Origin: Methylobacterium sp. 77
Lineage (GTDB): Bacteria > Pseudomonadota > Alphaproteobacteria > Rhizobiales > Beijerinckiaceae
Length of the DNA stretch: 64,000 bases
Assembly: GCF_000372825.1 (NCBI RefSeq)
Contig: NZ_KB910516.1
Coordinates: 3,763,825-3,827,824 of the forward strand
Reading direction: 5' to 3'
Shown: positions 1,576 through 62,893 of the stretch, piece by piece
Layout of the letters: each line of letters starts with the position of its first letter
How positions within the stretch are numbered: the stretch's first letter is position 1
Translations under genes and position numbers: made by a program
The notes under the pieces: generated by a model
Database searches by the model: none
Seen by the model: only the letters and a program-made list of their open reading frames with translations
What the model was told of the DNA's origin: nothing

Positions 1576-2406
1576 TTACGCCACGATGAATTTGAGCCTG
1601 TGTTCGCGGTGCAGGTCGAGGATCGCGGCGGCGGTCTCCTCGATGGACCGTCGGGTGACGTCGATGGTCGGCCAGCGATGACGATTGCAGAGCTTCCGGC
1701 AGGCGGCGATCTCGTCGGCGACGGCATCGCGATCGACGTAGAGCGAGGTGTCGTCGGCCTTCAGGCTCAAGAGCCGGTTCTGCCGGATCTGCACGATCCG
1801 CTCCGGGCTCGCCAGCAATCCGACGACGAGGGGCTTGCGTGCATTCTCCAATGAAGGCGGAACCGGCATTCCCGGAACGAGAGGAAAATTCGCGGTCTTC
1901 AATCCGCGATTGGCCAGATAGATCGCCGTCGGCGTCTTCGACGTGCGGCTGACGCCGACGAGGATCACGTCGGATTCGTCGATGTCGAAGGGCAGGTTGC
2001 CGTCGTCATGAGCGAGAGTGAAATTCATCGCGTCGATGCGCTTGAAATATTCGGCGTTCAGCATGTGCTGAGCCCCCGGCCGGGCCGTCGTCTCCGCACC
2101 GAGATAGGATTGAAGCAGCGCGTGGACCGGCTGCAGCACCGAGAGACAGGGCGAGCCGGTCTCGCGACAGGCCGCTTCCAGCCGCTCGGTCAGATCGTGC
2201 CCCACCAGGGTATAGAGGACCAGGCCGGGTGCCGCCTCGATCTCGGAGATCACGCGTTCGAGCTGGGCCGCCGATCGCACCAGCGGATAGACATGCTCGA
2301 TGGCCGAGACGCCCTCATACTGGGCCGCGGCGGCACGACCCACGTTGATGAGGGTCTCACCGGTGGAATCCGAGACGAGATGGAGATGGAAGTAGCTGCG
2401 ACTCAT
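1576..2406 (-). CDS. pyruvate phosphate dikinase / PEP synthase regulatory protein (DUF299)
   Basis: The 276-residue protein belongs to the DUF299 family of bifunctional Ser/Thr kinases and phosphorylases, which use ADP to inactivate and Pi to reactivate PEP synthase or pyruvate phosphate dikinase. The start [18 protein letters not shown] and the P-loop-like [15 protein letters not shown] near residue 155 are diagnostic. To my recollection this family corresponds to the RP001-type gene that flanks the origin in Caulobacter and Rickettsia, and here it also borders the long gene-free stretch facing hemE. Its target enzyme is not in the window, so PPDK versus PEP synthase is undecided. Downstream are maf and aroE on the same strand. 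Confidence 0.93.
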
Positions 2407-2454
2407 CGGAAATTCCCATCCCAGGCCATCGGACGGGCATGAGGGATCTCAGGG

Positions 2455-2463
2455 TTATCCACC
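2455..2463 (+). promoter_or_regulatory. DnaA-box-like site TTATCCACC
   Basis: The 9-mer matches the DnaA consensus TTATCCACA at eight positions. With the site at 2489-2497 on the other strand it forms a larger dyad: TTATCC followed by CACCTG here is mirrored by CAGGTG followed by GGATAA there. Confidence 0.65.
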
Positions 2464-2488
2464 ACACCTGAAGGCCGGAGTCGACAGG

Positions 2489-2497
2489 TGGGGATAA
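2489..2497 (-). promoter_or_regulatory. DnaA-box-like site TTATCCCCA (minus strand)
   Basis: Read on the minus strand this is TTATCCCCA, eight of nine matches to the DnaA consensus. It is the inverted partner of the site at 2455-2463, 34 bp away start to start. Confidence 0.55.
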
Positions 2498-2685
2498 AGC
2501 CCCCCGGCAAGTGTCAGGCTCGAAGCTTGGCCCCGGTCTGTCGACTCTTCCGTCAACATGCAGCACGTCGGGCCTCGTCCCGATCTCGTTTTGGGAGATT
2601 CAGGGAGGGTTCGGGCGGTGAGACCCTATCACGCGGTGCAAGTCGCTGATCGGACTTCCGCTTCTGGAAAGTTAGCGCGAACCCG

Positions 2686-2700
2686 TTAAAGCCCCGTTAA
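2686..2700 (+). promoter_or_regulatory. CtrA-type box TTAA-N7-TTAA
   Basis: TTAAAGCCCCGTTAA is an exact TTAA-N7-TTAA, the full-site consensus of the cell-cycle regulator CtrA. In Caulobacter CtrA binds such sites in the origin and blocks initiation. Here the site lies 22 bp from a DnaA-like box and 50 bp from the AT-rich dyad. Confidence 0.6.
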
Positions 2701-2722
2701 CGGCGGTGATGCGGGGACGGGG

Positions 2723-2731
2723 TGTGGACAA
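2723..2731 (-). promoter_or_regulatory. DnaA-box-like site TTGTCCACA (minus strand)
   Basis: The minus strand reads TTGTCCACA, one mismatch from the DnaA consensus. It lies between the CtrA-type box and the AT-rich dyad. Confidence 0.6.
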
Positions 2732-2750
2732 GTTCGCGTTCCCATCGTCC

Positions 2751-2808
2751 CCCGTCTAAAAGAAAAAACAGAGTCCTAGAATCTCTCTTTTCTTATTAGA
2801 TAGACGGG
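2751..2808. repeat. AT-rich dyad, candidate DNA unwinding element
   Basis: Perfect 8-bp arms CCCGTCTA (2751-2758) and TAGACGGG (2801-2808) flank the most AT-rich stretch of the region. Purine-rich AAAGAAAA sequence on the left is mirrored by TCTTTTCTTA on the right, so the dyad extends imperfectly. Two GANTC sites (2771-2775, 2779-2783) lie in its centre. A rho-independent terminator is less likely because the neighbouring genes diverge from here. Confidence 0.5.
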
Positions 2809-3029
2809 ACGGGACAGGGGTGATCGGCCACCCTCAGCGGCTCTCCGAGGTGAAGCAGTTTGGCGGGCAATATCCTTTTCGCGGGCGAGATCCTCGGAGA
2901 CGAAAGGACGTCCTGCGGTAAAACAACGTCCCAGGACAAAAGACCTTCCCGAGGACAGCCAGGAGCGTCATAGCTTTCTCCCAGCGATGACGATCTCCTC
3001 CACTCAACCATGGACCGGGCAGGACAGGC

Positions 3030-4100
3030 ATGAATCGACGTGACACCACCGATCGTGCGCTGATCCAGGTTCTCGACGGCAAGCCCTCCAGGATTCCTCC
3101 CGCCTGGATGATGCGACAGGCCGGGCGCTACCTGCCGGAATATCGCGAGGTCAGGGCCAAGGCCGGTTCCTTCCTCGACCTCTGCTACAACCCGGACTTC
3201 GCCACCGAAGTGACCTTGCAGCCGATCAGGCGCTTCGGCTTCGATGCAGCGATCCTCTTCTCCGATATCCTCGTCGTGCCCGACGCGCTCGGGCAGAACG
3301 TCCGTTTCGTCGAGGGAGAAGGCCCGCGGCTCGATCCGGTCCATGGCCGGGACGAATTCAGCGCCCTGAAACTGGCCGACGATCCGAGTATCTTCCAGCA
3401 TCTGGAGCCGGTCTTCGAGACCGTTCGCCGCCTGCGCTCCGCGCTGCCCTCCGAGACGACGCTTCTCGGATTCTGCGGCGGCCCCTGGACCGTTGCGAGC
3501 TATATGATCGGCGGGCGCGGCACGCCCGATCTGGCGCCCGCCCGCGCGCTTGCCGATACCGATACCTCCCTGGTGGAATCTCTCATCGACCGCCTGGTCT
3601 CGGTCCAGATCGAGTACCTGTCGCGCCAGTTGGAGGCCGGCGCCGATGCGGTCCAGATCTTTGAAAGCCATGCCGGTTCGCTGCCTCAGGCGTCCGGAGC
3701 GGCGACCGATGCGCTCACGCAATGGAGCTTTTCTCCCATCGCCCGCATCGTCGAAGGGGTCAGGGCGCGTGTGCCGGGAGCGAAGATCATCGTCTTCGCG
3801 CGTGGGTCCGGCCTCGAAGGCCATGCCCGCGTGATGGGGGAGACCGGCGCGGATGCCGTCGGTGTCGATTGGAGCGTCGATTTGAAGGCCCTGCGCGATG
3901 CCGTGGCGCCCCGCACCGTGACCCAGGGCAATGTCCACCCGGAAACGTTAATCGAGGGCGGCGACGCCCTCGATGCGGCCGTGGACGGGGTGCTCGAGGC
4001 AACCGAGGGGCTGCCGCACATCTTCAACCTCGGCCACGGCATCACGCCGCAGACGCCGATCGCCCATGTGGAGCGGATGCTCGCCAGATTGCGGCGCTGA
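3030..4100 (+). CDS. hemE: uroporphyrinogen decarboxylase
   Basis: HemE decarboxylates uroporphyrinogen III to coproporphyrinogen III in haem synthesis, in the cytosol and without cofactor. The 356-residue protein has the N-terminal signature [17 protein letters not shown] near residue 24, the loop [14 protein letters not shown] with its conserved Asp, [13 protein letters not shown] around 150, and GHGITPQTP near the end. An AGGA-type ribosome site sits just before the ATG. It is followed after 10 bp by hemJ, the next but one enzyme of the pathway, so the two are likely one operon. Its position beside the putative origin matches the conserved alphaproteobacterial arrangement. Confidence 0.97.
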
Positions 4101-4110
4101 CGACCAGCCC

Positions 4111-4563
4111 ATGGCCGACACGCTCTATCCCTGGATCAAGGCGATCCACGTCATCGCGGTGATCTCGTGGATGGCGGGGCTGCTCTACCTGCCGCGCCTC
4201 TTCGTCTACCACGCCTCCCTGCCCGAGGGCGCGGATTCCTCCGCCCAGTCCGAGACGTTCAAGGTCATGGAACGGCGCCTGATGAAGGCGATCATGAACC
4301 CGGCCATGGTCGTCACCTGGGTGCTCGGCCTCTTCCTCGTCTGGCAGAGCGCGTTCTACGCGTCGGGCTGGATGCAGGCGAAGTTCGCCCTGGTTCTGGC
4401 GATGAGCGGCTGCCACGGCTGGTTCTCGCGGATGGTCAAGGACTTCGCCGCCGACCGGAACGCGCGGAACCACCGCTTCTACCGGATGGTCAACGAGGTG
4501 CCGACGCTCCTCATGGTCGCCATCGTCATCCTCGTCATCGTCAAGCCGGGATTCGGGTCATGA
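4111..4563 (+). CDS. hemJ: protoporphyrinogen IX oxidase, HemJ family
   Basis: HemJ is the membrane-bound, oxygen-independent oxidase that converts protoporphyrinogen IX to protoporphyrin IX. The 150-residue protein starts MADTLYPWIKAIHVIAVISW, where the conserved His lies in the first membrane segment, followed by AGLLYLPRLFVYH and three more hydrophobic helices. The motif ERRLMKAIMNPAM is typical of the family. The ATG at 4111 is 10 bp after the hemE stop. Its stop overlaps the start of the next gene by 4 bp (ATGA), so hemE, hemJ and the small secreted protein are probably transcribed together. No HemG or HemY is visible in the window. Confidence 0.92.
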   Translation: MADTLYPWIKAIHVIAVISWMAGLLYLPRLFVYHASLPEGADSSAQSETFKVMERRLMKAIMNPAMVVTWVLGLFLVWQSAFYASGWMQAKFALVLAMSGCHGWFSRMVKDFAADRNARNHRFYRMVNEVPTLLMVAIVILVIVKPGFGS

Positions 4564-16778: not shown

Positions 16779-16798
16779 ACCCTCATCCATCCACAGCC

Positions 16799-16807
16799 TG
16801 TGGATAA
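16799..16807 (-). promoter_or_regulatory. perfect DnaA-box 9-mer outside the origin
   Basis: The minus strand reads TTATCCACA exactly. It overlaps an inverted partner (ATCCACAG, 16788-16795), so the two form the dyad TCCACAG-CC-TGTGGA. It sits 40 bp upstream of a good sigma-70-type promoter for the gene at 16976. Confidence 0.5.
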
Positions 16808-55232: not shown

Positions 55233-55605
55233 CGCAACCCACCGAAACGCGTCTCCGGCGAGACGAACACCGATCGGTCGTCCCGCCTGATTTGACGACA
55301 TCCGCGTTTCTCAATCATCATCCTCGCCTCGCCTGCACCGACCCTGTGCGAGGTCGCGCCGAAGGCAGCCCGGTTTCGTTTTCGACGAATCGCGACGGGG
55401 TGGACTTGAGCCGGATGCGGAAACGCGATATGGGGAAGTCCCTCCTTTTACGCCGTGTTGCATCCGAGAGCCATTGGCTCCCCATAGACGATGCGCGGAA
55501 CCGGCCTTCACCGCCGTTCCGACCACAGGTGCCGACAAGGCATCCGGCGCTCCTCCGACTGTCCTCCCCGATCAACCCTCGTCCATCGTCGGTTCCAATT
55601 CTCCC
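55233..55605. other. long leader region before rho
   Basis: This 373-bp gene-free region precedes rho. A promoter-like TTGAGC/TATGGG pair lies at 55406-55434, which would give a leader of roughly 165 nt. Long rho leaders are often targets of Rho autoregulation, and this one is pyrimidine-rich near its 3' end. No other gene or structured RNA is recognised. Confidence 0.45.
55406..55434 (+). promoter_or_regulatory. rho: putative rho promoter
   Basis: TTGAGC (55406-55411) and TATGGG (55429-55434) are 17 bp apart in the rho leader region. Spacing and -35 are good; the -10 is weak. Confidence 0.4.
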
Positions 55606-56949
<1,344 letters not shown>

Positions 56950-57192: not shown

Positions 57193-58500
57193 ATGAGCGA
57201 CGGCAGCACCATCTTCGCCCCCGCCAGCGGCTTCGGCCGTGCTGCCGTCGCCGTCATCCGCATCAGCGGCCCGGAATCCGGACCTCTCATCGTGAGGCTG
57301 GCCAAGCGCCTGCCGCCACCTCGCCGCCTGTCCCTGCGAACGCTTCGTGAGCACGGGACCGGCACCGTGCTCGATTCCGCCCTCGTCGCCTGGATGCCGG
57401 GACCGGATACGTTCACGGGCGAGGACATGGCCGAACTTCACCTCCACGGTGGCCTCGCCGTGCGCTCAGCCGTGATGGCGGCCTTGGCCACGCATCCCGG
57501 CTGCCGCCTCGCGGAACCCGGTGCCTTCAGCCGCCGGGCCGTCGAGAACGGGCGAATGGACCTCACCGCCGCCGAGGGAGCCGCCGACCTCATCGAGGCG
57601 GAAACCGACGCCCAGCGACGCCAGGCTCTGCGCCAACTCGACGGCGTCCTCGGCCGCAAGGTGGCCGAGTGGCGCGAGCGCCTGATCGACCTCCTGGCCG
57701 GTGCGGAGGCGGCCCTCGACTTCTCCGATGAGGGCGATGTCGACGACACCGCTCTCGACGCGCTCCTTCACGCCAAGGCTCGCATTATCCGCGATGAGAT
57801 CGCTACGATCCTCGCGGATGGCCGCCGCGGCGAGCGCCTCCGCGAGGGCTTCGTTGTGGTGCTGTCCGGCCCGCCCAATGCCGGTAAATCGACCTTGCTC
57901 AACGCCTTGAGCGAACGGGATGCGGCCATCGTGTCCGCCATACCCGGCACCACCCGCGACCTCATCGAGATTCGCTGCGATCTCGGCGGATTGCCGGTCA
58001 TTATCGTCGATACGGCGGGCTTGCGCGAGACGGTCGATCCCGTGGAAGCCGAAGGCATCCGCCGCACCCGCAAACGGATGGATCAGGCCGATCTCGTCCT
58101 CGCCCTTCATGCGGGAGACGAGCCCGCGAATGACGCAAAGCCCCTCTCCGATCGATCCGTTACGGTGCGGACGAAGGCCGATCTCGGAGGCATCGCGAAT
58201 GGCGAGATCGCCATCTCGGCGGTGACCGGGCAGGGGCTCGACCAGCTTCTCATGCTCATCGAGGCCCGAGCCGAATCCGCATTGGGCGGAGGCGATGCGC
58301 TCATTACGCGCGAACGCCACCGCGACGGGCTCACCCGGTGCCGCGATCATCTCGACAGACTGTTAGCGGGACCTGCCCTCCCCGAGCTCCTCGCCGAGGA
58401 TCTGCGCCTAGCCGTGAGGGCCTTGGGCGAAGTCGCCGGCCGGGTCGGCGTCGAGGACATGCTCGATCGCCTGTTCTCGGGGTTCTGTATCGGCAAGTAG
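57193..58500 (+). CDS. mnmE: tRNA modification GTPase MnmE
   Basis: MnmE, with MnmG, modifies the wobble uridine (cmnm5U34) of certain tRNAs. The 435-residue protein starts MSDGSTIFAPASGFGRAAVA. It has the tetrahydrofolate-binding domain with HGGLAVRSAVMAAL, a G domain with GPPNAGKSTLLN near residue 226, DTAGLRETVDPVE (G3) and TKADL-type G4, and the C-terminal FCIGK with the catalytic Cys. It converges on parB (86 bp), whereas in many relatives mnmG follows in the same direction. Confidence 0.97.
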   Translation: MSDGSTIFAPASGFGRAAVAVIRISGPESGPLIVRLAKRLPPPRRLSLRTLREHGTGTVLDSALVAWMPGPDTFTGEDMAELHLHGGLAVRSAVMAALATHPGCRLAEPGAFSRRAVENGRMDLTAAEGAADLIEAETDAQRRQALRQLDGVLGRKVAEWRERLIDLLAGAEAALDFSDEGDVDDTALDALLHAKARIIRDEIATILADGRRGERLREGFVVVLSGPPNAGKSTLLNALSERDAAIVSAIPGTTRDLIEIRCDLGGLPVIIVDTAGLRETVDPVEAEGIRRTRKRMDQADLVLALHAGDEPANDAKPLSDRSVTVRTKADLGGIANGEIAISAVTGQGLDQLLMLIEARAESALGGGDALITRERHRDGLTRCRDHLDRLLAGPALPELLAEDLRLAVRALGEVAGRVGVEDMLDRLFSGFCIGK

Positions 58501-58586: not shown

Positions 58587-59480
58587 TCACGCCCCGTCTG
58601 AGACTTTGAACCGCCGGCACAGGGCGTCGAGTTCCTCGGCCGTCTCGTAGCGAATGCGGATTTCGCCGCTGCCCTGGTTCTTCGACTTGAGCGAGACGGA
58701 GACACCGAGCGCCCGCGCCATCGCCTGTTCGAGGCTGTGCACCTGCCCGTCACGCTCGGGCTTGCGCGGACGGCCGGGACGCGGCGAATCCCCGTCCGGC
58801 ACCTCGGCCGAGGCGAGAGCCTCGACTTCGCGCACGGACAAGCCTTCGGCCACGATACGCCGCGCAACGGCTTCAGGATCCCTCACCGCCAGCAAGGCGC
58901 GGGCATGACCCGCCGTGATCTCGCCGGCGACGACACGGTCCTGGATCGAACTGGACAATTGCAGCAGGCGCAGAGTGTTGGCGAGGTGAGAGCGGCTCTT
59001 GCCGATGATCTCTGCGAGTTCGGTCTGGCTGTAGCGGAACTCGCTCATCAGCCGCTCGTAACCGGCGGCTTCCTCGATGGCGTTGAGGTCGCTGCGCTGG
59101 ACGTTTTCCAGGATGGCGTATTCGAGCGACGTCCGGTCGTCGATCTCCACGACGACGATCGGCGCTTCGTGAAGGCCGGCACGCTGTGCAGCCCGCCAAC
59201 GACGCTCACCGGCGACGATCTCGTACGTATCCGGAACGCCGGCGAGGGCGCGCACGACGATGGGCTGGATGATGCCGCGCAGCTTGATCGATGCCGCCAA
59301 CTCGTCGAGTTCGGCCTCATGGAAGCGACGGCGAGGATTGCGCGGATTGGGACGCAGGAATTCGACGGCGACCTTGCGCTGTGCCTGCGGCTTGCCCGCA
59401 TCGCCGTTATCGTCACCCACATCCCCGATCAGGGCCGCGAGCCCGCGCCCGAGCCGGGGCCGCGCCACTTCATCCGCCAT
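58587..59480 (-). CDS. parB: chromosome partitioning protein ParB
   Basis: ParB is a CTP-dependent DNA clamp that loads at parS and spreads to organise the origin. The 297-residue protein has an N-terminal ParA-stimulating region (RPRLGRGLAALIGD), the ParB/Srx domain with the CTP-binding GERRWRAAQR at 91-100 and ENVQRSDLNAIEEA. A parS-reading helix-turn-helix (YSQTELAEIIGKSRSHLANT) and a C-terminal dimer domain follow. It follows parA by 53 bp. Two good parS-like sites occur in this window, at 60952 and 17814. Confidence 0.97.
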   Translation of the reverse strand: MADEVARPRLGRGLAALIGDVGDDNGDAGKPQAQRKVAVEFLRPNPRNPRRRFHEAELDELAASIKLRGIIQPIVVRALAGVPDTYEIVAGERRWRAAQRAGLHEAPIVVVEIDDRTSLEYAILENVQRSDLNAIEEAAGYERLMSEFRYSQTELAEIIGKSRSHLANTLRLLQLSSSIQDRVVAGEITAGHARALLAVRDPEAVARRIVAEGLSVREVEALASAEVPDGDSPRPGRPRKPERDGQVHSLEQAMARALGVSVSLKSKNQGSGEIRIRYETAEELDALCRRFKVSDGA

Positions 59481-59533
59481 CGCCACCTGCTTCAACTCCG
59501 GTACGCTACACAAACACGAGAAAAACGAGGATT

Positions 59534-60376
59534 CTACGCCGCCACCGGAAGCCGGCCCTCGCGCTGGATCACTTCCGAGGCCAAGCGCAGATAGGCCTGC
59601 GAGCCGGCGCATTTCAGATCGTAGAGCAGCACCGGCTTGCCATGCGACGGGGCCTCCGAAACGCGAACGTTGCGCGGGATCGTGGTCTCGTAGACCTTGT
59701 CCCCCAGAAAGCCGCGAACATCGGCCGCGACCTGGTTCGAGAGGTTGTTGCGCGGGTCCACCATCGTCAACACCACGCCCTGGATCGTCAGACGTGGGTT
59801 CAGAGCGGCGCGCACCTGCTCGACCGTCCGCAGCAACTGGCTCAATCCTTCGAGGGCGAAGAACTCGCATTGCATCGGAACGAGAACGGCATCCGCGGCC
59901 GCCAGCGCGTTGATCGTGAGCAGGTTCAGCGAGGGCGGGCAATCGATCAGTACGTAGGTCACGCCCTCCGTCGCGCCGGTCTTGCCGATATCGGCCATGG
60001 CGTTGCGCAGGCGATGGGCTCGGTCGGAGGAGCTCGCCATCTCCAATTCGAGGCCGAGAAGGTCCATCGTGGAGGGGGCGACCAGTAGACGGGGCACGGC
60101 GGTCGGTACCACCGCCTGGGCGAGCGAGGCGTCGCCGGCGAGCACATGGTAGGTCGAAACCCTGCGCGAGCGCCGATCGATTCCGAGCCCGGTCGACGCG
60201 TTACCCTGCGGATCGAGGTCGATCACCAGCACGCGCTCTCCGATGGCGGCGAGGGCAGTGCCGAGATTGATGGCCGTCGTCGTCTTGCCGACGCCACCCT
60301 TCTGGTTGGCCAGCGCGAGCACGCGCAAAGGCCGATCGGGCGTCGCCCTGGAGGCGGAGGAGGGTTCGATGGTCAT
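59534..60376 (-). CDS. parA: chromosome partitioning ATPase ParA
   Basis: ParA is the nucleoid-bound ATPase that moves ParB-origin complexes. The 280-residue protein has the deviant Walker A NQKGGVGKTTTAINLG (Lys26 and Lys31), VLVIDLDPQGNASTGLGI, VLIDCPPSLNLLTINALAAA and VLTMVDPRNNLSNQVAADV. This is a chromosomal (short, no HTH) ParA. Its ATG overlaps the rsmG stop by 4 bp, so rsmG, parA and probably parB share a transcript. Confidence 0.97.
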   Translation of the reverse strand: MTIEPSSASRATPDRPLRVLALANQKGGVGKTTTAINLGTALAAIGERVLVIDLDPQGNASTGLGIDRRSRRVSTYHVLAGDASLAQAVVPTAVPRLLVAPSTMDLLGLELEMASSSDRAHRLRNAMADIGKTGATEGVTYVLIDCPPSLNLLTINALAAADAVLVPMQCEFFALEGLSQLLRTVEQVRAALNPRLTIQGVVLTMVDPRNNLSNQVAADVRGFLGDKVYETTIPRNVRVSEAPSHGKPVLLYDLKCAGSQAYLRLASEVIQREGRLPVAA

Positions 60377-61014
60377 GAATCCACGCGGGAGAGTGTCGTG
60401 ACGCGGACGACCCGCGCTTCCGACTCAGTACGGCTCGGCACCAGATCGTAAACGAATCTCCACCGTTGCGCTGCCTCGGTCAATTCCGTCTGTGCATCAC
60501 GCCCCTTCGGAAACAGGCCGATGGTGCCGGTTGTCAACAGCGGTTCGGTCCAAGCGAGCAACTGGTCCAAAGGGGCGAGGGCGCGGGCGCAGACCACGGC
60601 AACGCCGGACAGACTGCCGATCGCGTCCTCGATCCGTACGTTGCGCACGTGTGCCGGTGCTTTGGTCAGGCGCGCGACTTCGGTGAGGAAGGCGCATTTG
60701 CGGGCGTTGCTCTCGATCAGGTCGACACGAAATCCAGGCCTGTCCCGACCGGCAATGGCAAGGATCAGCCCCGGGATGCCGGCTCCGGAGCCGAGATCGA
60801 GCCAGGTGGTGGCGTCGGGTGCGAGGTCCAAAAGTTGAAGGGCATCGGCAATGTGACGCGTCCAGACCTCGGTGAGGGTAGCCGGACCCACGAGGTTCTT
60901 GACGCTCTGCCAACGCCGCAATTGCTCGACATAGAGATCCAATGCGGCGGCTGTTTCACGTGAAACATTCGCCTGGGCGAGAACGCGCGCCCGGTCGTCC
61001 GGCTTACCGGCCAT
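60373..61014 (-). CDS. rsmG: 16S rRNA (guanine527-N7)-methyltransferase
   Basis: RsmG methylates G527 of 16S rRNA. The 213-residue protein has an N-terminal helix with [18 protein letters not shown] and the SAM loop [36 protein letters not shown] and [16 protein letters not shown] follow. It overlaps mnmG by 11 bp and parA by 4 bp. The codons for Asn-Val-Ser-Arg-Glu-Thr near residue 20 form the perfect parS palindrome, as also reported within or near gidB in other bacteria. Confidence 0.95.
60952..60967. promoter_or_regulatory. parS: perfect parS centromere site
   Basis: TGTTTCACGTGAAACA is a perfect 16-bp palindrome identical to the near-universal bacterial parS consensus. It lies in the 5' part of rsmG, about 1.5 kb from the parB gene and about 58 kb from the putative origin. 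Confidence 0.93.
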
Positions 61015-62893
61015 GGCTGGCAGCCGAGGCGGAGCGGTCGGCCCGGCGGGCATGCGCCGCCAGCAATGTCAGAGCAGCCGGTGTAACGCCTTCGATCCGG
61101 GCGGCTTGACCGAGCGTGCCGGGTCGAATGGCCTCCAGCTTGGCCTGCATCTCGTTCGAGAGGCCCGGAATGGCGGCGTAATCGAGCTTGATCGGAAGGG
61201 TCACGGCTTCATCGCGCCGGAAGGCGGCGATGTCGGCGCTCTGTCGGTCGAGATAGACCGCATAGGTCGCGTCCGTTCGAAGCCGGTCGGCGACGCGCGG
61301 AGACACCTCCTTCAGCTCGGGCCAGACATCGGCCAAGCGGTCCCAGCCGATTTCAGGGTAGGACAGCAGCTGGAACGCGCTGCGACGGATGCCGTCCTGA
61401 TTGAGCGCGATGCCATGCCGGGCCGCTGCCGCCGGCGTCAGGCAGAGGCCGTCCAATCGTGCGCGCGCTGCCTCGAGTTCGGTCTGTGAGCGGGCGAAAT
61501 GCTCGGCTCTCACCGATCCGACGCAGCCGAGCGCGGCACCACGCGGGGTCAGCCGCTCGTCGGCATTGTCCACGCGAAGCGAGAGCCGGTACTCCGAGCG
61601 CGAGGTGAACATGCGATAGGGCTCGCTCACCCCATGAGTCACGAGGTCGTCGATCATCACGCCGAGATAAGACTCAGCCCGGTCGAAGCCGGATAAAGCG
61701 GATCCGCCGGCGAGACGCGCCGCGTTGATGCCGGCCACGAGACCCTGGCCGGCCGCCTCTTCATAGCCGGTGGTGCCGTTGATCTGTCCGGCGAGGAACA
61801 GGCCGGGCAGGCGCTTGGCCTGGAGCGTGGTGTCGAGTTCACGCGGGTCGACGTAATCGTATTCGATCGCGTAGCCGGGCCGTACGATGGCCGCGTGTTC
61901 GAGGCCGGGGATCAAGGCGATCAGGTCGCGCTGCACGCTCTCGGGGAGGGCGGTGGAAATGCCGTTGGGATAGACGGTCGGGTCGTCGAGACCCTCAGGC
62001 TCGAGGAAGATCTGATGTCCTTCCCGGTCGCCGAAGCGCACAACCTTGTCCTCGATCGACGGGCAATAGCGCGGGCCGCGGCTGCTGATCCCACCGGAAT
62101 ACATCGGCGAGCGATGGAGATTGGCGCGGATGAGATCGTGTACCGCCTGCGTGGTACGAGTGATGCCACACTGGACCTGTGGGGTGGTGATCCGCTCGGT
62201 CAGGGTCGAGAACGGCACCGGATCGTCATCCGCCGATTGCATGTCGAGGCCGGACCAATCGATGGTACGGCCGTCGAGGCGGGCAGGGGTACCGGTCTTG
62301 AGGCGTCCCAGGGCGAAGCCCAGACGGTCGAGGGTCTGGGCAAGGCCGACCGATGGGCCCTCGCCGACGCGCCCGGCCGGAATCTGGACCTCGCCCATAT
62401 GGATGAGGCCGCGCAGGAAGGTGCCGGTGGTGAGCACGACCGCTGCGCAGGGTATCGCCCGGCCATCCGCCAGGACCACGCCGGCGATGCGTGCCTTGTC
62501 GATCTCGATATCGGCGACTTCGCCCTCGACGACCGTCAGGTTGGCCGTCTCGGCCACGGCTTCCTGCATCGCCCGCGCATAGAGCTTGCGGTCGGCCTGG
62601 GTGCGAGGGCCGCGCACGGCCGGTCCCTTGCGCCGATTGAGCAACCGGAACTGGATTCCGGCCGCATCGGCGACACGGCCCATCAGGCCATCGAGCGCAT
62701 CGACCTCGCGGACGAGGTGGCCCTTGCCAAGCCCGCCAATGGCCGGGTTGCATGACATCGCGCCGATCGTGGCGGCGGAATGGGTGACAAGAGCGGTGCG
62801 GGCACCGATGCGGGCGGCCGCGCTGGCGGCTTCCACTCCGGCATGGCCGCCGCCGACCACGACCACGTCGAAGGAGAGACTCGTCTGGGACAT
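61004..62893 (-). CDS. mnmG: tRNA uridine 5-carboxymethylaminomethyl modification enzyme MnmG
   Basis: MnmG is the FAD- and NADH-using partner of MnmE in wobble-uridine modification. The 629-residue protein has the FAD motif [20 protein letters not shown] near the start, [39 protein letters not shown] and [37 protein letters not shown] and a C-terminal helical domain follow. It is 92 bp downstream of holA and overlaps rsmG. It lies on the strand opposite mnmE. Confidence 0.97.

Follow-up and report, generated by a model that had tools for sequence, protein, structure and literature searches.

Where does the chromosome of this Methylobacterium start to replicate, and do its two arms take their polarity from that same place? 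The question is raised by a 623-bp gap in the window that we analysed, a stretch of 64,000 bp (positions 3,763,825–3,827,824 of a single-contig genome of 4,664,957 bp, here G000). A sequence-only reading of the window had proposed that the gap is the chromosomal origin, oriC. No map of oriC, parS or KOPS was found among the titles and abstract openings of the literature on Methylobacterium. In M. extorquens the origin was set at dnaA by convention, "as no GC skew was observed", in the words of the passage cited (PMC2680597). An oriC at the gap would give a testable origin to a genus whose M. extorquens reference genomes, with no skew to go by, begin at dnaA.

The gap between DUF299 and hemE

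The gap (2407..3029) has a single match in the genome, at 3,766,231, and is flanked by two divergent genes: that of a DUF299 protein, or kinase-pyrophosphorylase (1576..2406, minus strand, PF03618), and hemE (3030..4100, plus strand, PF01208). DUF299 ends at 2406 and hemE starts at 3030, so that the 623 bp are free of genes, as first described. On the left are maf and aroE, and on the right is hemJ (UPF0093; 4111..4563, plus strand, PF03653, beginning at ATG). Relatives that share a DUF299 of 99% identity belong to Methylobacterium, M. bullatum being an example. The sole Rfam match above the cut-off in the window is a terC RNA (RF03067, 38953–39010, 67.8 bits).

The motifs that had been read in the gap are all there. 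Three DnaA-box-like 9-mers have one mismatch each: box A (TTATCCACC, 2455..2463, plus strand), box B (TTATCCCCA, 2489..2497, minus strand) and site C (TTGTCCACA, 2723..2731, minus strand); no exact DnaA box occurs within the 623 bp. A CtrA-type site, TTAA-N7-TTAA, is exact (2686..2700), and GANTC sites start at 2478, 2543, 2597, 2771 and 2779. Two of the latter belong to an AT-rich dyad (2760..2794) which, based on its symmetry, folding and conservation, is a candidate unwinding element. Its arms (2760–2775 and 2779–2794) are 81% complementary, and the single strand 2740–2815 folds better than shuffled sequences (z -2.6; 3 of 200 shuffles are equally good). One exact consensus pattern for IHF is unmatched in the gap, the motif being degenerate and the pattern used a single strict one.

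To judge what chance would give, we took the window together with 80 pieces of 20 kb, that is 1,664,000 bases or about 36% of the 4.66-Mb chromosome. DnaA boxes with at most one mismatch occur 52 times in this sample, which amounts to 0.019 per 623 bp, and the DUF299–hemE gap is the sole place in the sampled 36% where at least three one-mismatch boxes fall within 623 bp. For 623 bp, chance would give 0.005 CtrA-type sites, where one is found, and 1.2 GANTC sites, where five are found. The GC content of the gap is 0.59, against 0.615–0.707 in the sampled 20-kb pieces; its AT-rich stretch is modest, the 60-bp GC minimum ranking 66th among the 241 low-GC places listed in the sample.

The window contains another arrangement of DnaA-box-like sites, 14.4 kb from the gap: a tight inverted pair (ATCCACAGCCTGTGGAT, 16789–16807), directly after what we judged by eye to be a putative acyltransferase gene. 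This pair holds the sole exact TTATCCACA of the sampled genome, and the relative G008 has a box-like pair at a similar offset. It is possibly a site that titrates or reactivates DnaA.

Conservation of the layout

Comparing the motif layout across relatives had been proposed as a check of the initial reading. We fetched 114 loci and cut 113 gaps (L204 was dropped at the orientation check); with the window this makes 114 rows, among which, owing to overlap between two sources and to 4 duplicated loci, there are 90 distinct sequences, and 67 after dereplication, nearly all from Methylobacterium and 4 from Microvirga. A direct DNA search of 36 other genomes of the genus gave a match to the gap in 34, most of which cover only parts of gap positions 233–402, and none in the two others (G025 and G033).

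The layout is largely kept in the 90 distinct gaps. All 90 contain the TTAA-N7-TTAA site. Box B was sought on the minus strand 150–215 bp before that site: 80 of the 90 gaps have it with no more than one mismatch, 77 of these at 196–199 bp and 3 at 162–163 bp; scanning the whole 400 bp upstream of the CtrA-type site yields one extra minus-strand box, at 221 bp. Box B reads TTATCCCCA in the lineage of the window and TTATCCACA in sister groups; among relatives as a whole it is mostly CTATCCACA or TTATCCACA. On the plus strand, the best box within the 60 bp that precede box B is 33–35 bp from it, with at most three mismatches in 84 of 90 gaps and at most two in 66. The AT-rich 18-mer with its two GANTC sites follows the CtrA-type site at +80/81 bp in 69 of 90 (at most three mismatches), the other 21 being more diverged. 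Site C, on the contrary, is mostly lineage-specific: it has one mismatch in 9 gaps and at least two in 81, and what is conserved is its TGTGGA core only.

The alignment of the 67 dereplicated gaps also reveals conserved blocks around the GANTC sites. Every column of GGAGTCGA (2477..2484, with the GANTC site 2478–2482) is at least 95% conserved; TCGACTC (2541..2547, GANTC at 2543–2547) and TGGGAGATTCAGGGA (2592..2606, GANTC at 2597–2601) are conserved too. The first two form a conserved inverted pair, whose conservation is at least that of the DnaA boxes. The extended inverted repeat that had been described around boxes A and B stands in part: the box pair and its spacing of 33–35 bp are conserved, whereas the CACCTG/CAGGTG arms are not in the 67 gaps, and these arms are a lineage-specific detail as judged from the alignment; the loading of a DnaA dimer at the pair, as first suggested, is conjectural.

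It is important to note that a plain count of one-mismatch boxes over the 90 distinct gaps gives one box in 56, two in 18, three in 7 and none in 9, which speaks against an origin at the gap if taken at face value. Since most relatives have at most one such box, the bare count would miss the origin, and the fixed spacing is the stronger evidence. The window and locus L098 have 28 gaps of 120 bp or more, of which only the DUF299–hemE gap matches all 5 sampled relatives, bearing in mind that the counterparts of some gaps fall outside the sampled stretches of these relatives. In the wider order, an 18-mer like that of the candidate unwinding element (at most two mismatches) is found near DUF299 in 1 of 60 other genomes of the order, with 6 having it elsewhere and 53 not at all. 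In this genome, G048, from another family, the 18-mer has 2 mismatches and lies 357 bp from DUF299, compared to 360 bp in the window; it counts by its position only, the backward control of the 18-mer giving as many hits as the 18-mer itself.

A predicted origin

We consider the DUF299–hemE gap to be very probably oriC, one more example of the Caulobacter-type hemE/DUF299 origin. This assignment is supported by the box cluster, unique in the sample, by the conserved spacing, CtrA-type site, GANTC sites and AT-rich block, by a gene context shared with Caulobacter and Rickettsia, and by the lack, within the sample, of any rival cluster around dnaA or parS.

In Caulobacter, CtrA and CcrM are the regulators that time the firing of the origin. 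A similar sequence of events may be proposed here: DnaA would bind the conserved inverted pair A/B, 33–35 bp apart, as well as weaker sites such as C, and would then spread towards the AT-rich dyad, about 80 bp past the CtrA-type site, where the DNA would open. Firing would be timed by CtrA at TTAA-N7-TTAA and by CcrM methylation at the GANTC sites.

Could the gap be nothing more than the promoters of the divergent DUF299 and hemE genes, under the control of CtrA, CcrM and DnaA? The two genes do diverge, and in alphaproteobacteria CtrA-type and GANTC sites also act as promoter elements. Against this stand the inverted DnaA boxes and the AT-rich dyad at fixed distances, and a box cluster that is unique in the sample and located where the Caulobacter origin was mapped, according to the passage cited from PMC1914354; we find this explanation very improbable. 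An origin upstream of dnaA, the conventional chromosome start of the M. extorquens records, is even harder to believe, and we disfavour it. That start is a convention only, adopted "as no GC skew was observed" (the statement quoted above from PMC2680597), while dnaA is 855 kb from the gap, no box cluster is found in 4,610,001–4,630,000, and KOPS are mainly on the plus strand on both sides of dnaA, without a switch.

Polarity of the chromosome

Skew, whose minimum had been proposed as a check, is of little help. Across 83 pieces of 20 kb, neither GC nor TA skew gives a usable signal for hemE or for parS, the GC skew being almost nil; the skew at four-fold sites, once gene strand is allowed for, is close to zero, with even a slight reversal. 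The M. extorquens statement (PMC2680597, in the part cited) is consistent with this. An rRNA model, intended to give the orientation of the operons, matched in only 2 of 13 genomes.

An unsupervised scan gave a clear signal. The strongest strand-polar octamers, GGGGAGGG (z 9.05) and GGGCAGGG (z 8.49), are KOPS (GGGNAGGG); the maxima over 30 orientation shuffles are 4.6–5.6. KOPS polarity is usually taken as running from oriC to dif. The octamers are polar on both arms and divide the chromosome at 3.82–3.825 Mb and near 1.07–1.10 Mb, the switch on the terminus side being at about 1.096–1.10 Mb; a dif-like site, at 1,093,698, is only a few kb away. An alphaproteobacterial dif 22-mer has no match in the whole genome with at most three mismatches; a looser 26-mer scan of 38 kb gave one candidate, TTCGCATAAGATATATTATGGAACTT (G000:C1:1093698-1093723), with 6 mismatches where the next best unrelated place has 11. 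This candidate, which lies in the lowest-GC 30-mer of 1.093–1.102 Mb, is assigned by its resemblance to the consensus only.

The switch on the origin side coincides with an exact parS at 3,824,776 and not with the hemE gap at 3,766,231. Outside 3.60–4.06 Mb, 242 of 275 KOPS sites fit a division between parS and dif. Measured from parS, the arms are unequal, about 1.93 and 2.73 Mb. Hence, if oriC is the hemE gap, the origin-side switch is not at oriC: it is about 58 kb away, near parS, and the gap is not the centre of the polarity of the chromosome. The proposal of an origin at the gap is otherwise well supported by the box cluster, the conserved layout and the gene context.

Separation of the predicted oriC from parS

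The exact parS (TGTTTCACGTGAAACA, 60952..60967) is inside gidB, beside parAB and 58 kb from the gap. It belongs to a group of genes that begins about 51 kb from hemJ: rho (55474..56949, plus strand), mnmE (57193..58500, plus strand), parB (58587..59492, minus strand), parA (59534..60376, minus strand), gidB/rsmG (60373..61053, minus strand) and gidA/mnmG (61004..62893, minus strand). The usual order is hemE-hemJ-rho-mnmE-gidAB-parAB; rho, mnmE and parAB–gidAB are here 51 kb or more from hemE–hemJ. In Caulobacter, parS is about 8 kb from Cori, as against 58 kb from the gap in this Methylobacterium.

The separation is general among the Methylobacterium genomes measured. Among 13 Methylobacterium genomes, picked out of 37 for their few contigs, all have 18–427 kb between the gap and the nearest parS (at most one mismatch), whereas DUF299 and parS are 2–18 kb apart in all of 17 genomes from other families of the order, picked for contiguity from 53 others with a DUF299 hit. 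The short distances in the other families agree with the ancestral order of the cluster. It would seem that the ancestral hemE-hemJ-rho-mnmE-gidAB-parAB cluster was cut between hemJ and rho in Methylobacterium, with the result that oriC and parS are now 18–427 kb apart in the 13 genomes. Taken together, that the gap is oriC and that the oriC/parS cluster was split in Methylobacterium is, in our opinion, probable.

The number of parS sites (at most one mismatch) varies: one each in G000, G008, G016, G019 and G024, and 9–11 in G002, G007, G010 and G026, scattered over 0.8–3.3 Mb. A site that resembles parS, with two mismatches, lies 13.5 kb from the gap on the side opposite to parS and may be a second parS, nearer oriC.

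The position of the KOPS switch in six genomes

Does the switch follow parS in other genomes? Five relatives were picked for contiguity and for their hemE–parS distance, which reaches 427 kb in one of the six genomes, before their KOPS results were known. Since KOPS are biased against the sense strand of genes, gene strand and arm were fitted jointly, using 275 sites of G000 that lie outside the contested region, and the resulting weights (-0.84 and 2.19) were applied to all six genomes; the weights thus come from one genome, and the six share ancestry and are not fully independent.

Compared with the best position, a switch placed at hemE has a log-likelihood deficit of 15.3 nats in G000, 52.9 in G036, 17.7 in G008, 23.0 in G024, 12.3 in G010 and 36.5 in G018. 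The corresponding deficits of a switch at parS are 1.3, 0.0, 3.5, 0.0, 9.4 and 10.1 nats. The 2-nat switch interval of G000 is 3,807–3,825 kb and has parS on its right border; in G036 and G024 parS is inside an interval only 3.5 kb wide. The best interval of G008 is 1–2.5 kb from parS. In G010 some 8 kb lie between the best switch and the exact parS, and parS and hemE are barely separated (2.8 nats); in G018 the best switch is 10–45 kb from the exact parS, between this site and a one-mismatch parS. That the switch is away from hemE holds in all six genomes; it is at parS precisely in three, closely in a fourth and approximately in two.

Simple counts of KOPS on the plus and minus strands between hemE and parS tell the same: 4/14 in G000, 11/40 in G036, 7/15 in G008, 3/16 in G018 and 12/0 in G024, with 5/4 in G010, a genome which is uninformative by such a count. 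In G024 parS lies beyond hemE, on the DUF299 side, so the sign expected for a switch at parS is reversed, as observed. Four other octamer sets served as controls, and three of them (GGGACGGG, GGGCTGGG and GGGTCGGG) have no consistent switch. The fourth, GGCSAGGG, weakly leans the same way (6 plus and 18 minus on the left and 17 plus and 13 minus between hemE and parS in G024; 50 plus and 78 minus between them in G036), and this, together with the deficits at parS in G010 and G018, weighs against our interpretation. For a sparse subset, AGGGSAGGGC, results are listed for G005 and G016 among 6 genomes; in G005, among the matches listed, three of the four sites between the exact parS and hemE oppose a switch at hemE, and G016 shows no clear direction.

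The offset could be a passing effect of recent local inversions and not a property of parS. Such inversions do occur near parS, one of them distinguishing G000 from G008, and the switch is not exactly at parS in G010 and G018. We think this quite unlikely, as the offset recurs at hemE–parS distances that differ and reach 427 kb, on either side of hemE (the DUF299 side in G024), and as parS lies within the narrow intervals of G036 and G024.

Another possibility is that oriC itself has moved beside parS in Methylobacterium, the hemE gap being a conserved regulatory relic or a double promoter. This would explain why the switch avoids hemE in six of six genomes and falls near parS. The inversion between G000 and G008, which covers parS and excludes hemE, points in the same direction: it should leave the KOPS polarity intact only if the axis lies inside it. 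On the contrary, the sampled surroundings of parS have no DnaA-box cluster in G000, nor clustered boxes in G036, G024 and G018, and G010 has a single box 2 kb away. The gaps on the parS side are poorly conserved (rho–mnmE matches in 0 of 5 relatives, Smr–rho in 1, and mnmE–parB in 3 over 53–150 bp), whereas the layout of the hemE gap is kept; a weakly boxed origin could have escaped the scan. A moved origin therefore seems unlikely.

The anatomy and conservation expected of an origin are found at the gap and nothing similar is seen near parS or dnaA in the sample, so that we keep oriC at the gap and interpret the KOPS axis in terms of segregation. We lean, with some reserve, towards the idea that in Methylobacterium the centromere parS, rather than oriC, sets the polarity axis, the FtsK-orienting motifs being arranged around parS. 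The switch would be there for the reason, slightly the more plausible one to us, that the arms handled by segregation extend between parS and dif; when the origin cluster was split, segregation polarity would seem to have remained with parS. If this is true, up to 427 kb are replicated outward from oriC while bearing segregation signs that point the opposite way.

Comparison with known systems

The origin proposed here resembles Cori of Caulobacter crescentus, which was mapped in the hemE/COG1806 context, as stated in the part of PMC1914354 that we cite. The flanking genes are the same (hemE and CC0001, COG1806 being DUF299), and DnaA boxes, TTAA-N7-TTAA and an AT-rich stretch are present in both (PMC1914354, same part). 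Cori differs in having five CtrA-type sites, compared to one here, and five boxes, compared to three one-mismatch boxes here; one IHF consensus pattern is unmatched in the Methylobacterium gap. The same passage of PMC1914354 gives hemE and COG1806 as border genes of the Rickettsia prowazekii origin, a likeness of gene context and not of aligned sequence.

As in the KOPS/FtsK systems with a switch at dif described in the cited parts of PMC13342612 and PMC6199493, the motifs are polar on both arms, and they switch a few kb from a dif-like site; there the other end of the arms is taken to be oriC, whereas here it is near parS. Where oriC and parS adjoin each other, as they normally do according to the cited section of PMC6199493, which of the two defines the arms cannot be told. 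Methylobacterium separates them naturally, by varying distances, and can thus tell whether it is replication or the centromere that segregation polarity follows. The end point of segregation in P. aeruginosa is dif, and not the terminus of replication (PMC6199493, cited section); by analogy, we infer a mirror situation, in which segregation polarity would start at parS and not at oriC.

Last, parS has been moved away from oriC in strains of V. cholerae and P. aeruginosa, as it is separated here (PMC4091711 and PMC5098823, in the parts cited). Chromosome I of V. cholerae is reorganised when parS is moved (PMC4091711). In P. aeruginosa separation begins with parS, which is functional within about 650 kb around oriC (PMC5098823). 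The separation was engineered in these two species, whereas in Methylobacterium it is natural, present in 13 of 13 genomes and accompanied by a switch of KOPS near parS.
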